40,465 nucleotides of DNA from Candidatus Avelusimicrobium pullicaecorum (GTDB lineage: Bacteria > Elusimicrobiota > Elusimicrobia > Elusimicrobiales > Elusimicrobiaceae): positions 1 through 40,465 of the forward strand of contig CALUQD010000009.1 of assembly GCA_944322825.1 (NCBI GenBank), given 5' to 3'. The notes under the pieces are model-generated. The model was given only the letters and a program-made list of their open reading frames with translations. It made no database searches and was not told the origin of the DNA. Below are positions 1 through 40,465 of the stretch, piece after piece. The position numbers and the translations under genes are program-made. Position 1 is the first letter of the stretch. Each line of letters opens with the position of its first letter.

Positions 1-27
1 GATCCACAAAAATCACTCATTTTATAT

Positions 28-53
28 GTACTTTTTCCGGCGGGAAAAAGTAC
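28..53. repeat. Poly-T/poly-A hairpin (GTAC-T5 type)
   Basis: GTACTTTTTCC at 28-38 pairs exactly with GGAAAAAGTAC at 43-53 across a 4-base loop. Relatives lie at 34052-34077, 34257-34282, 34511-34536, 39732-39753 and 40193-40218, with stem sequences that vary while staying paired. It is a REP-like palindrome; its function is unknown. Confidence 0.7.
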
Positions 54-77
54 CAAAAAGCGCCCGGCCCAGGGCCC

Positions 78-310: not shown

Positions 311-361
311 GCCCCGGCTCGGGGCCCTTGATTTGTTTTTTTTTTTTGATAAATTTTGCGT
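311..361 (+). promoter_or_regulatory. Promoter of pilin P1 with 12-T spacer tract
   Basis: A GC hairpin GCCCCG-GCT-CGGGGC (311-325) is followed by a -35-like TTGATT (328-333), a 16-base spacer holding 12 consecutive T (336-347), and an extended -10 TGA-TAAATT (347-355). The ATG begins 6 bases after the -10, so transcription would start at or next to the start codon. The hairpin plus T-run also resembles an intrinsic terminator for upstream transcripts. The layout is seen directly; promoter activity is inferred. Confidence 0.65.
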
Positions 362-382
362 ATGAGCAAAATTTATCAAAAA
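343..382. repeat. 15-bp palindrome around the P1 start codon
   Basis: TTTTTGATAAATTTT (343-357) is the exact reverse complement of AAAATTTATCAAAAA (368-382). The 10-base loop contains the ATG (362-364). P6 has the same perfect palindrome (40286-40325) and P5 a copy with two mismatches. Its left arm contains the -10 hexamer. Confidence 0.8.
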
Positions 383-9741: not shown

Positions 9742-10248
9742 ACATAGGCTCCTGTTCTTTGAAGTCATTGTACAATACTTTTTAAAGCGTGTGTGATAAT
9801 CTCTGTCTGCGTGGGGTTTGGGGCGGTTGCGCAAAAGTCGGCTTGGAAAGAACAGTGCGGCCCGGCTCGGGGCCGTTTTTGTAGGGCGCGACATTGCGGA
9901 AACAGTGTGGCTTAAACTAGTCGTGCTAACGGGTAAAGAGTGGGGAGCCCCGGCTCGGGGCCGTTTTTGTAGGGCGCGACACCACAGAAACAGTGTGGCT
10001 CCAGGAGTCGTGTTACCGGGGCAAGGTAAGGGAGGGGCGGCTCGCCTTTTGCGAGAACGTCCCCAACTTGTTGTTCCTTTTTGCGTTAGCACCGTATTTT
10101 GCAAAACCCTGTCCGAGGCAGAGCACCGCGGCCTGGAAGGTCCTGCCCCCGGCAAGGGGCCGTTTCGTTGGAGCGCGGTATTCCAAAAACAGTGTGGCTC
10201 AACCAGTCGTGTTAGCGGGCAAAGAGTGGGGAGCCCAGGCTCTGGGCC
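9742..10248. repeat. Repeat block in front of pilin P2
   Basis: From 9742 to about 9820 the block carries the promoter region of the MORN operon (a TACAAT hexamer on the minus strand at about 9770-9775 is a weak candidate). From about 9850 come GTGTGGC/GAGCCC modules: two units 87 bases apart share CCCGGCTCGGGGCCG (9861 and 9948). From 9988 the block is the first copy of a long direct repeat with 11050 on. A 108-residue open frame at 9993-10319 is present in both copies of the repeat, but has no start signals and is taken as non-coding. Confidence 0.7.
9861..10034. repeat. Tandem pair of 87-bp units
   Basis: The stretch CCCGGCTCGGGGCCG-TTTTTGTAGGGCGCGAC occurs at 9861 and again at 9948, each followed by a variant of GAAACAGTGTGGC. 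Between them lies the GTCGTG...GGGTAAAGAG part of the dispersed module. Only the second unit continues into the long duplicated leader. Confidence 0.65.
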
Positions 10249-10276
10249 TTGATTTGTTTTTTTTTTTTGATACACT
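10229..10276 (+). promoter_or_regulatory. Promoter of pilin P2 with 12-T spacer tract
   Basis: The layout is as in P1: hairpin GCCCAG-GCT-CTGGGC (10233-10247), TTGATT (10249-10254), a 16-base spacer with 12 T (10257-10268), and extended -10 TGA-TACACT (10268-10276). Here the -10 lies about 80 bases before the ATG, so a leader of about 70 bases is expected. Confidence 0.6.
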
Positions 10277-10285
10277 GGGCCTAGC

Positions 10286-10337
10286 GTTGATTTTTGGGCT
10301 GTTAATTATTAGACTGTAATTAAGCACTAAAATCAAC
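10286..10337 (+). promoter_or_regulatory. Nested 5'-leader hairpin of pilin P2
   Basis: GTTGATTTT (10286-10294) pairs with AAAATCAAC (10329-10337) and, inside, TTAATTA (10302-10308) pairs with TAATTAA (10317-10323). It begins within a few bases of the predicted transcript start and ends 5 bases before the AAGGAG site. It may stabilise the message or affect translation. P3 has the same structure. Confidence 0.65.
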
Positions 10338-10354
10338 TTGCTAAGGAGTATTTG

Positions 10355-10849
10355 ATGAAAAAGGGTTTTACTTTAATCGAACTGCTCGTTGTCGTCCTAA
10401 TTATTGGTATCCTGGCGGCGGTAGCCTTGCCGCAATACGAAATGGCGGTGCTCAAATCCCGTTTTGCGGCTATTCGTACGGTGGGGGAGAATCTAAAAAG
10501 AGCTGAAGAAGTATATTATATGGCCAATGGCCATTACACATCCACCACGGAGGACCTAGATATTGATTTTAAAGGCGCTTGTAAAGGAACGGGCGTTCTA
10601 CAATGCGAAAATTTCTTTCGGGTGGATATCATCAACGGAGCCGGAATTGTGACGGATCCCGGCAAATTGTATATTAGTATCATCTATTATCCGCAAGGAT
10701 ATGACCTGAGCGCGGATTCTGAGAGAGGGACGGGGGCCTTTTTCTATACCATTTGGCTTGATAACTCCTCTTACCCTGGAGAACGACGTTGTACCGGCTA
10801 TACAGACCTGGGAAAGAAATTTTGCAAAATGATGAATGCCGCACAGTAA
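10355..10849 (+). CDS. Type IV prepilin (P2)
   Basis: A 164-residue prepilin with a very short leader, MKKG, before [14 protein letters not shown] with Glu at mature position 5. The hydrophobic helix ends at PQYEMAVLKSR, then a YYMANG motif (about residue 52) and a variable C-terminal domain with four Cys (CKGTGVLQC and later RRC/FCK), likely paired as in other pilins. ATG at 10355, not TTG at 10352, is used because AAGGAG lies 6 bases before it. Unlike P1, P5 and P6 it has a Shine-Dalgarno site and a leader hairpin, so it belongs to a second pilin class together with P3. Its role as major or minor pilin is open. Confidence 0.9.
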   Translation: MKKGFTLIELLVVVLIIGILAAVALPQYEMAVLKSRFAAIRTVGENLKRAEEVYYMANGHYTSTTEDLDIDFKGACKGTGVLQCENFFRVDIINGAGIVTDPGKLYISIIYYPQGYDLSADSERGTGAFFYTIWLDNSSYPGERRCTGYTDLGKKFCKMMNAAQ

Positions 10850-10862
10850 GTAACCCGTCAAT

Positions 10863-10895
10863 AAAAAACCCCGGGAATAATCCCGGGGTTTTTTG
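10863..10895 (+). terminator. Terminator after pilin P2
   Basis: AAAAAACCCCGGGA and TCCCGGGGTTTTTT form a 14-bp stem with an ATAA loop, 13 bases after the P2 stop. Confidence 0.92.
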
Positions 10896-11310
10896 TATAT
10901 AGGAATAAATAGTCAACTTTTTTACAGAACAACAAGTTTTTTCCTATTACATAAGCATCATATTTCACGGGACTCTGTTCCAGGCAGAGTTCCATTCCCT
11001 GGAAGGGGCCCCAGCCTCTGAGATGTTTCGCAAGAGTGCAACATCTCTAAAACAGTGTGGCTCCAGGAGTCGTGTTACCGGGGCAAGGTAAGGGAGGGGC
11101 GGCTCGCCTTTTGCGAGAACGTCCCCAACTTGTTGTTCCTTTTTGCGTTAGCACCGTATTTTGCAAAACCCTGTCCGAGGCAGAGCACCGCGGCCTGGAA
11201 GGTCCTGCCCCCGGCAAGGGGCCGTTTCGTTGGAGCGCGGTATTCCAAAAACAGTGTGGCTCAACCAGTCGTGTTAGCGGGCAAAGAGTGGGGAGCCCAG
11301 GCTCTGGGCC
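10896..11310. repeat. Repeat block in front of pilin P3
   Basis: The first 150 bases hold degraded relatives of the dispersed modules: a CTGTTCCAGGCAGAG stretch and GAGATGT...ACATCTC, a hairpin around a diverged GCGCAAGAGCGCGACATTG. From 11050 the second copy of the long direct repeat begins. No gene is supported; the open frame at 11055-11366 duplicates the one before P2. Confidence 0.65.
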
Positions 11311-34016: not shown

Positions 34017-34309
34017 TATTATCCGGCCGGAGCCCGGCCGAGGCCAAGGGAGTACTTTTTGGGGCGGGAAAAAGTACCAAAAAACGCCCGGTGCCGTTGC
34101 GCAAGAGCGCGACATTGCAGGAACAGTGTGGCGTGCTAGCGGGTAAAGAGAGGGGGGCACCGGCTCTAGGCTGTTGCGTATGGTGCAACAGTGCGGAAAC
34201 AGTGTGGCGTAAACTAATCGCGCTAATGGGTATAGAGTTCCACCCCCTGGAAGGGGCCCTTTTTCTGACGCCAGAAAAAGGGCGAAAAAGAGCGCCGCCC
34301 CAGGGAGCC

Positions 34310-34406
34310 ACAAAAATCACTTTCAAACGGGAAATTTTATAACTTGCGCGGGCTTTGCCCGCGCTCAAACAATAAAATTTTCTAATCCGTTTGAAAGGCT
34401 TTTTGT
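34310..34406 (+). repeat. Nested hairpin element, copy E2
   Basis: ACAAAAA (34310-34316) pairs with TTTTTGT (34400-34406). CTTTCAAACGG (34320-34330) pairs with CCGTTTGAAAG (34387-34397). GAAATTTTAT (34331-34340) pairs with ATAAAATTTTC (34372-34382, one extra T). GCGCGGGC (34346-34353) pairs with GCCCGCGC (34357-34364). Compared with E1, the changed bases in the stems are matched by changed partners. Confidence 0.85.
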
Positions 34407-34510
34407 AGACGGCTCTAAAGGGGGCGGATAAACGACACCAGCAACGATAATGACAGAAGCGGAAACAACGACCACAGTAACGACAGAAGAGAAAAGGGCC
34501 CGCATTTTGG

Positions 34511-34536: not shown

Positions 34537-34649
34537 AGGTAAGAGCAATTGTGTTAACGGATATAGAAACAGGAGGTTTCCTCAAGAACGCGATATTGCA
34601 GGGACCGTGTGGCTTGAATTAGTCGTGTTGGTGCGCATAGAGTTGGGAG

Positions 34650-34699
34650 CCCCGGCGCGGGGGCCTTGACTCGTTTTTTTTTTTTGATAAATTTTGTCT
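34650..34699 (+). promoter_or_regulatory. Promoter of pilin P5 with 12-T spacer tract
   Basis: A GC hairpin (GCCCC...GGGGC, 34649-34664), a -35 of TTGACT (34666-34671, the best match to TTGACA among the pilins), 12 T (34674-34685) in a 16-base spacer, extended -10 TGA-TAAATT (34685-34693) and the ATG 6 bases later at 34700. Confidence 0.7.
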
Positions 34700-35266
34700 A
34701 TGAGCACAACTTATCAAAAAACCTTCCCGGCGGGGAAAAACGCCGGATTTACGCTTATAGAGCTTCTTGTGGTGGTTTTAATTATCGGTATTCTGTCGGC
34801 GATTGCGCTGCCGCAGTATACCAAAGCGGTGGAAAAATCCCGCGCGGCGCAGGCATTGGCGGTTTTGAAATCCTTTGGGCAAGCGTATCAAGCCTATTAT
34901 ATGGCCAATGGGGAATATCCGACTTCGTTTGACCAGCTGGATTTGGATATGAAAGGTTGGACGGGAAAGGAAAAGTGGTACACTTATAATAATACGGACA
35001 CGCGTTCTAATGGAGATTGGTCTTTGCAGCTTTTAAATAAAACAGATACCGCTGGAATATACATTGGTCGACTTACCGGGGAATATAAAGGCGTTGGCTT
35101 TGGCTTTTTTGGAAAGGCACTGTATGATACGGATACGATTTTGTGCTTGGAGCGGACAAGCGGTGGAGTTGTTTTTGAAAAAAATGCCGGGGATTACTGT
35201 ACCAAACTTTTTCATGCACCGTTTCTTAACGCTGTAGGCGGAACGCGGGCCTATCGTATGCCGTAA
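34700..35266 (+). CDS. Type IV prepilin (P5)
   Basis: A 188-residue prepilin with leader MSTTYQKTFPAGKNAG, mature [23 protein letters not shown] and Glu5. YYMANGEYPTSFDQLDLDM follows, then a variable region that differs from the others. ATG at 34700 is taken over the in-frame TTG at 34694 by analogy with P1 and P6. Its stop codon touches the ruvC stop on the other strand (35266/35267), with no room for a terminator. It lies within the yebC-ruvC-ruvA-ruvB order on the opposite strand, a sign of insertion. Confidence 0.9.
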   Translation: MSTTYQKTFPAGKNAGFTLIELLVVVLIIGILSAIALPQYTKAVEKSRAAQALAVLKSFGQAYQAYYMANGEYPTSFDQLDLDMKGWTGKEKWYTYNNTDTRSNGDWSLQLLNKTDTAGIYIGRLTGEYKGVGFGFFGKALYDTDTILCLERTSGGVVFEKNAGDYCTKLFHAPFLNAVGGTRAYRMP

Positions 35267-39753: not shown

Positions 39754-39871
39754 TACCAAAAAGCGCCCGGTGCCGTTGCGCAAGAGCGCGACATTGCAGG
39801 AACAGTGTGGCCCAACCAGTCGTGTTAACGGGTGAAGGAAAGGGGGCACCGGCTCGGTGCCCCAGGGCCCC

Positions 39872-39968
39872 ATAAAAATCACTTCCAAGCGGGAAATTTT
39901 ATAACTCGCGCGGGCTTTGCCCCGCGCTCAAAAAATAAAATTTCTAATCCGCTTGGAAGGCTTTTTAT
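39872..39968 (+). repeat. Nested hairpin element, copy E3
   Basis: ATAAAAA/TTTTTAT (39872-39878 and 39962-39968), CTTCCAAGCGG/CCGCTTGGAAG (39882-39892 and 39949-39959), GAAATTTTAT/ATAAAATTTC (39893-39902 and 39935-39944) and GCGCGGG/CCCGCGC (39908-39914 and 39921-39927). The outer stems match E1; the top hairpin matches E2 more closely. Confidence 0.85.
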
Positions 39969-40072
39969 AGACGGGGCGAAAGGGCCGGATAAACGGCAAC
40001 AAGCACGGCCACGGCAAAAGCGGAAACGGCTTTCCTTTTTGCCGTTGTTTTTGGGGCCCTTTAGAGCCGCTT

Positions 40073-40167
40073 ATAAAATACGCTTTCGGGCGAAAAAGGC
40101 GTTTTATCTGTCTGAGCGCGGGGGACCCGCGCGAGTTATAAACGCCCGCCCGAAAGGTGTATTTTAT
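40073..40167 (-). repeat. Nested hairpin element, inverted diverged copy E4
   Basis: ATAAAATA (40073-40080) pairs with TATTTTAT (40160-40167). CTTTCGGGCG (40083-40092) pairs with CGCCCGAAAG (40147-40156). GGCGTTTTAT (40098-40107) pairs with ATAAACGCC (40138-40146, one base short). GCGCGGG (40116-40122) pairs with CCCGCGC (40126-40132). Read on the minus strand it has the same parts as E1 in the same order, including the unpaired AACTC before the top hairpin and the bulge on the 3' side. Its stems share few bases with E1. Confidence 0.75.
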
Positions 40168-40192
40168 GGCTCCCCGGGCCCCGCATTTTTTG

Positions 40193-40256: not shown

Positions 40257-40304
40257 GCCCAGGCTCTGGGCCTTGATTTGTTTTTTTTTTGATAAATTTT
40301 GGCT
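40257..40304 (+). promoter_or_regulatory. Promoter of pilin P6 with 10-T spacer tract
   Basis: Hairpin GCCCAG-GCT-CTGGGC (40257-40271), TTGATT (40273-40278), 10 T (40281-40290), extended -10 TGA-TAAATT (40290-40298) and ATG at 40305 after 6 bases. The spacer is 14 bases instead of the 16 in the other pilins because the T-run is two shorter. Confidence 0.65.
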
Positions 40305-40465
40305 ATGAACAAAATTTATCAAAAACCCTTCTCGGCGGGGAAAAACGCCGGATTTACGCTAATAGAGCTATTAGTAGTGGTTTTAATCATTGGTATCCTG
40401 GCGGCGGTGGCGTTGCCGCAATATACCAAAGCGGTGGAAAAATCCCGTTTAATGAAATGGGCTCC
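40305..40465 (+). CDS. Type IV prepilin (P6), 5' part
   Basis: The first 53 codons of a prepilin, cut by the window end. The leader [16 protein letters not shown] precedes [19 protein letters not shown], with Glu5 and the KAVEKSR end of the helix. The leader and start-codon palindrome match P1. The variable domain lies outside the window. The promoter has a shorter T-run than the other copies. Confidence 0.88.

Follow-up and report, generated by a model that had tools for sequence, protein, structure and literature searches.

A nested-hairpin repeat near type IV pilin genes in an elusimicrobial genome may be a DNA element conserved by its fold

The window analyzed here, the whole of contig G000:C9 (40,465 nucleotides) in the 1.5 Mb draft genome of Candidatus Avelusimicrobium pullicaecorum (G000, the source genome), contains four copies of a nested-hairpin element, a non-coding unit of ∼125 bases. 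The three forward-strand copies each lie upstream of a type IV pilin gene: copy 1 (65 to 188) precedes P1 (362 to 889, forward, ATG at 362), copy 2 (34296 to 34425), the feature under study, precedes P5 (34700 to 35266, forward, ATG at 34700, between ruvA and ruvC), and copy 3 (39858 to 39987) precedes P6 (40305 to 40465, forward), of which only the start is present before the contig end cuts the gene. A covariance model, R1, built from 18 sequences from Elusimicrobiota only, scores these copies at 143.9, 133.4 and 143.3 bits, respectively. Copy 4 (40054 to 40181, reverse strand, 102 bits) is a divergent, inverted copy ∼70 bp downstream of copy 3; its stem sequence is mostly unlike that of the forward copies and covaries with that of their type (type A). 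Facing pairs, with one copy of type A and one of the divergent type B ∼30–250 bp apart, occur in the window (39858 to 40181), elsewhere in the source genome, and in G007, G081 and G085. Beside full copies there are also 5′ half-copies (CCACAAAAATCACTT then GTTTTAGATGTACTTTTT), from which the 3′ arm has seemingly been lost (L003, L009, L030, L117 and window positions 1 to 60), and one locus (L024/L025, G000:C4:39942-40480), absent in G021, holds a tandem pair of copies 441 bp apart with a repeated leader between them.

The forward copies form an exceptionally stable structure. RNA folding gives −37.6 to −42.4 kcal/mol, with z-scores of −8.8, −7.6 and −7.8 for copies 1, 2 and 3, and none of 200 shuffled sequences folds as well; with DNA parameters, z is ∼−8 on either strand, for copy 2 as for the forward copies in general. 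Copy 1 belongs to a GCCCC/CTTCCAAGCGG subfamily and copy 2 to a GAGCC/CTTTCAAACGG subfamily: the outer helix reads GCCCC-ATAAAAA...TTTTTAT-AGAC-GGGGC in copies 1 and 3 and GAGCC-ACAAAAA...TTTTTGT-AGAC-GGCTC in copy 2, a compensatory difference. Near the tip, an internal loop in copy 2 has AACTT on its 5′ side (34341 to 34345) and CTCAAACA on its 3′ side (34364 to 34371), and lower down a TNNT bulge (34383 to 34386) is the counterpart of CTTAACG in relatives from other phyla; its NN differs strongly even between near-identical copies. An earlier note, made from the DNA alone, had described three forward copies with these stems and paired changes, and all were found as described; it located them correctly but drew them slightly short, since the outer helix extends each unit to the limits given above. 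The unpaired bases around the top hairpin, AACTCG and CTCAAACA, stay constant as it claimed; copy 2 has AACTT where nearly all other copies have AACTCG. A separate hairpin precedes the element, at 34254 to 34293 for copy 2 (forward, GGGCCCTTTTTCTGACGCCAGAAAAAGGGC-GAAAAAGAGC) and, in the same form, at 27 to 60 for copy 1 (forward, GTACTTTTTCCGGCGGGAAAAAGTACCAAAAAG, repeat family D14). A comparable hairpin, of the form TTACTTTT...AAAAGTAACCAAAAA, stands before most non-Clostridium copies, including those of Elusimicrobiota, Bacteroidota, Fusobacteriota and Pasteurellaceae.

The covariation is very strong, held-out copies included. Among the 18 training sequences, 15 of 41 pairs show two-sided changes (56 cells, against 15.4 in shuffled and at most 15 in slid alignments). 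In a held-out set of 49 matches from other clades (47 distinct), outside the R1 training, 35 of 40 pairs do so (392 cells, against 123 shuffled and at most 93 slid), the covariation score reaches 0.541 (shuffled, 0.147; slid, 0.137 at most), and 95.9% of cells remain paired; this alignment was fitted to R1 and is hence biased towards structure, although the margin is nonetheless very large. Helix 3, constant within the source genome, varies freely together with its partner in the held-out alignment, and the apical hairpin varies in size, being at one extreme a three-base loop closed by two base pairs and at the other a stem of seven or eight pairs. The unpaired AACTCG and GCTCAAACA are almost invariant across the same alignment. 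Selection on structure, as the earlier note proposed, is supported.

Within the genus, the distribution is patchy. With blastn, ∼40 copies were recovered in the source genome, and 11 of the 61 genomes searched contained copies, all within its genus. The covariance-model search of Elusimicrobiota, which had been suggested from the first reading, was run with R1 and found 45 copies in the source genome. Of 66 genus genomes, 36 have matches and many sister species have zero copies; two further matches lie in one genome of another family (G109). Related genomes therefore do carry further copies, and their stems are repaired far more often than broken.

Beyond the phylum, the loops recur on unrelated stems. 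An exact pattern (TTTATAACTCG, gap, CTCAAACAATAAA) searched in 84,980 species genomes occurs at 61 loci, five of them in Clostridium and the remainder all in Elusimicrobiota-type gut metagenome-assembled genomes. In Clostridium the unit is a nested palindrome of 193 bp whose stems are unlike those of Elusimicrobiota. R1 matches 7 of 68 Clostridium genomes, including species that only the model reached, and some of these matches have wholly different stems and identical loops; Clostridium and Pasteurellaceae copies are possibly under-counted because of the training of R1. Further relatives lie on plasmids of Aureibacter tunicatorum (Bacteroidota) and Ilyobacter polytropus (Fusobacteriota), and the 3′ side of the apical loop is the same (CTCARACA) in Clostridium, Aureibacter and Ilyobacter. 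Clostridium and Bacteroidota-type copies also share a second internal loop, with CTAA facing CTTAACG, and Haemophilus-type copies carry the two on swapped sides. The consensus across phyla reads [stem]-CTAA-[stem]-AACTCG-[tip]-CTCARACA-[stem]-CTTAACG-[stem]. Plasmid and phage BLAST searches with Elusimicrobiota, Clostridium and Haemophilus-type units gave few distant matches. Scanned for the core alone, viral contigs give a bimodal result: of 79 exact core matches, 18 are flanked by stems of 8 bp or longer (∼2 expected with flanks re-paired), and the other 61, with flanking stems of at most 5 bp, are chance. The true matches include P2-like prophages of Pasteurellaceae type, in which the element sits between M and L (in Mannheimia phage PHL101 the M-L gap is just 111 bp and holds it). 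Across the prophage contigs, its orientation relative to the phage genes is mixed. Shared loops on unrelated stems point to an unnamed structured DNA element that would be conserved by its shape. Loops common to Elusimicrobiota, Bacillota, Bacteroidota, Fusobacteriota and Pasteurellaceae prophages imply that the structure either has spread widely by horizontal transfer and has a common reader, or is a structural signal of great age.

Several of these loci show features of their own. Clostridium loci L220–L247 include, besides the 193 bp dyad, inner-deleted forms of 41–89 bp that keep the outer arms only; a Xer/dif-like reading of these arms was dropped because the stems are free in sequence and the copies scattered. 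The Aureibacter copy (L203/L212, pAT2 165000–182000) lies in a tandem duplication of 8.2 kb, next to a pair of tyrosine recombinase genes that overlap, and genes for Rhs and polymorphic toxins are close by. As movers, these recombinases are suggestive, but they represent a single locus within that duplication. Pasteurellaceae-like prophages with family members carry AAAGTGCGGT signals.

Pilin leaders are a favored but not the sole location of the element. Read from 1.5 kb flanks, a type IV pilin lies 150–830 bp downstream in the same orientation for 18 of 18 copies in the source genome with enough downstream sequence, in a genome with 98 N_methyl matches (59 to 150 in relatives). The upstream-of-pilin placement first seen in the window thus stands for this clade; it does not extend to other clades of the genus, where 21 of 48 copies precede a pilin at a distance of up to ∼650 bp (with same and opposite orientations about equally frequent) and most of the remaining copies have no pilin nearby. 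Relatives in other phyla have no pilin association. As the placement is not general, the element is not simply a pilin regulatory element. Comparison with the close relative G021 shows whole leader-plus-pilin cassettes missing at L003, L018 and L022, with flanking terminators intact. The ruvC-ruvA slot holds element and pilin in G000 and G012, pilin alone in G021, element alone in G014, neither in G002, and unrelated pilins in G024 and G029. At the G029 locus (L102, near ruvA), a pilin-start fragment (promoter, 21 residues, stop) immediately precedes a complete pilin gene of a different type. Element-bearing pilin cassettes have been both acquired and lost, and the element may be a cause of this.

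Whether the conserved fold belongs to DNA or RNA can be approached from its mismatches. A G.T pair on one strand is an A.C pair on the other, so a structure maintained at the RNA level, where G.U would be tolerated in a stem as it should not be in DNA, should show a strong excess of one, and equal rarity of both favors pairing at the DNA level. In the held-out alignment without the junction pair (columns 43/102), 1532 of 1617 cells are Watson-Crick, with 18 G.T and 22 A.C, against 25 G.T and 1 A.C in the tRNA stems of the same genomes (Fisher p ∼1e-5, or 6e-4 with the junction pair retained, the cells of related copies being only partly independent). The stems are Watson-Crick on both strands, which favors a DNA structure; of the two options in the earlier note, RNA or single-stranded DNA, the latter is preferred, and the strongest conclusion on mechanism is the negative one, that this pairing is unlike the behavior of RNA stems. 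Applied to other structured repeats, the same symmetry could tell DNA from RNA by straightforward comparison. A structured RNA, either a small RNA or a portion of a long pilin leader transcript, nevertheless remains a real rival, if an unlikely one: the strong RNA fold and covariation would fit it, as would the constant orientation and distance from pilins in this clade. Besides the missing G.U excess, it must contend with the mixed orientation in other clades and phages and with a promoter-like sequence directly at the pilin ATG, downstream of the element, which would leave the element outside that mRNA. Nor does any Rfam 15 family match at the gathering score, permissive thresholds giving chance-level matches only, in keeping with the initial failure to recognize the element from any family.

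The best explanation, held at a probability of roughly 0.45, is that what is conserved is the folded strand, as a hairpin or cruciform, of a non-autonomous, non-coding DNA element that is recognized through its loops and travels with gene cassettes. Long stems of almost free sequence would serve to position two small internal loops: an apical one, AACTCG/CTCARACA, and a lower one, CTAA/CTTAACG or in its place a bulge such as TCTNNTCC. Some protein most likely recognizes these loops in the folded strand. The element would spread passively, as a non-autonomous, recombinogenic extragenic sequence. In this Elusimicrobiota clade it would have been amplified within the pilin cassette, a unit of mosaic leader, promoter, pilin and terminator whose gains and losses fall between ordinary genes' terminators, and would add to its movement beyond homologous recombination of its repeats. 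For Elusimicrobiota, this may be a clue to how some genomes acquired 60–150 scattered pilin genes. A broader version, that one shape-conserved DNA element in at least five phyla and in prophages has its loops read as single-stranded DNA by a conserved protein and helps cassettes to move, is possible but doubtful.

Several observations weigh against this explanation. No autonomous partner was found: Y1_Tnp (PF01797) occurs in 12 of 66 genus genomes and is absent from most many-copy ones (G000, G007, G011, G019, G024), and PF00589 matches number just 2 in the source genome (Xer-like) and 3 in G011, no different from genomes that have zero copies. Y1 transposases and extra tyrosine recombinases were accordingly rejected as movers, neither correlating with copy number. 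With no mover found, movement may depend on a protein of the host, or the repeats may recombine homologously. Neither a target-site duplication nor a clean insertion of the element alone was recognized, empty sites being seen only for whole pilin cassettes. The strand-specific loops would fit an RNA as well. Finally, even diverged P2-like phages of Pasteurellaceae have the element in one shared position, the M-L junction, a pattern suggestive of functional retention.

The other real rival, likewise unlikely, is an elaborate terminator that stops transcription in both directions, or an insulator, either of which would separate scattered pilin genes from their neighbors. The A-run and T-run flanks on both strands (AAAAA..TTTTT), the terminator-like hairpin that precedes the element and the intergenic site are all what this reading would predict, but a terminator has no need of invariant internal loops kept across phyla, simple terminators already adjoin the element, and in the P2-like prophages the element lies inside the late operon. 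More improbable still is that the pairing is a mutational by-product, template switching in replication correcting quasi-palindromes so that paired changes arise without selection. Such a process would leave Watson-Crick pairing on both strands, as observed, and the inner-deleted short Clostridium forms suggest replication slippage on these hairpins; it should, however, also close the internal loops, which stay mismatched across phyla. As the loops remain unpaired and constant while the stems change, simple palindrome repair would be insufficient. Mobilization by a Y1 HUH transposase, with the element being REP/REPIN-like or derived from IS200/IS605, would fit the multi-copy, extragenic, imperfectly palindromic character shared with those families, but it is very improbable given the scarcity of that transposase in many-copy genomes.

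Unlike most bacterial extragenic repeats, which are confined to a single genus and conserved in sequence, the element shares loops across phyla on free stems. ERIC, BOX and NEMIS/Correia repeats are extragenic imperfect palindromes of ∼100–150 bp, non-coding, present in many copies and sometimes found near surface genes. The element resembles them in size, extragenic site, imperfect palindromy, copy number and non-coding nature; they are restricted to one order or genus with their sequence kept, whereas here the stems are nearly free and the loops cross phyla. REP/REPIN with RAYT and the ends of IS200/IS605 also form DNA hairpins, there recognized as folded single strands, but the present unit is three to five times longer and most many-copy genomes lack a Y1 transposase. 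Integron attC sites are likewise folded single-stranded DNA with an apical stem of variable length and conserved unpaired bases. Unlike attC, the element has free stems, its copies are scattered singly rather than arrayed, and it comes with no extra tyrosine recombinase; the attC R-box pair GTTRRRY / RYYYAAC is not conserved, as stems vary freely in the held-out alignment (A5), and PF00589 counts reveal no dedicated integron integrase in G000 or G011. The Haemophilus pilus cluster encodes chaperone-usher pili, not type IV pilins. Intergenic dyad sequences of Haemophilus influenzae are described, in a passage of PMC4144887, as present in multiple places and thought important for the mobility of loci, notably that cluster (Read & Farley 1997; Read et al. 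2000, as cited in PMC4144887). In shape, the one feature compared, the element is similarly an extragenic dyad repeated in the genome; that work, compared by description only, covers one species, and the dyads may be relatives. A search of the literature on the core sequence found no relevant paper. The element is best regarded as an extragenic structured repeat, a variant conserved by its loops across phyla with free stems, and is not filed under the Haemophilus dyads.

Two further modules recur around the pilin genes. The pilin starts (window 333–364, 34663–34702 and 40273–40307, and other loci of the source genome) consist of TTGA[CT]T, a poly-T of 10–13 and GATAAATTTTGNNTATG; they have no Shine-Dalgarno sequence, and the ATG lies within a palindrome, GATAAATTTTG..TATGANCAAAATTTATC. 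This motif is a candidate leaderless promoter, in which slippage could vary the spacer length (phase variation). A second leader module, GCGACATTGCNGAAACAGTGTGGC..TAGTCGTGTTAACGGGTATAGAG followed by a hairpin with a variable stem around a GGCTC loop, is present at 9870–11310, 34100–34240, 34583–34669 and 39769–39861, and the element-bearing insert of G012, relative to G021, starts and ends at such modules.
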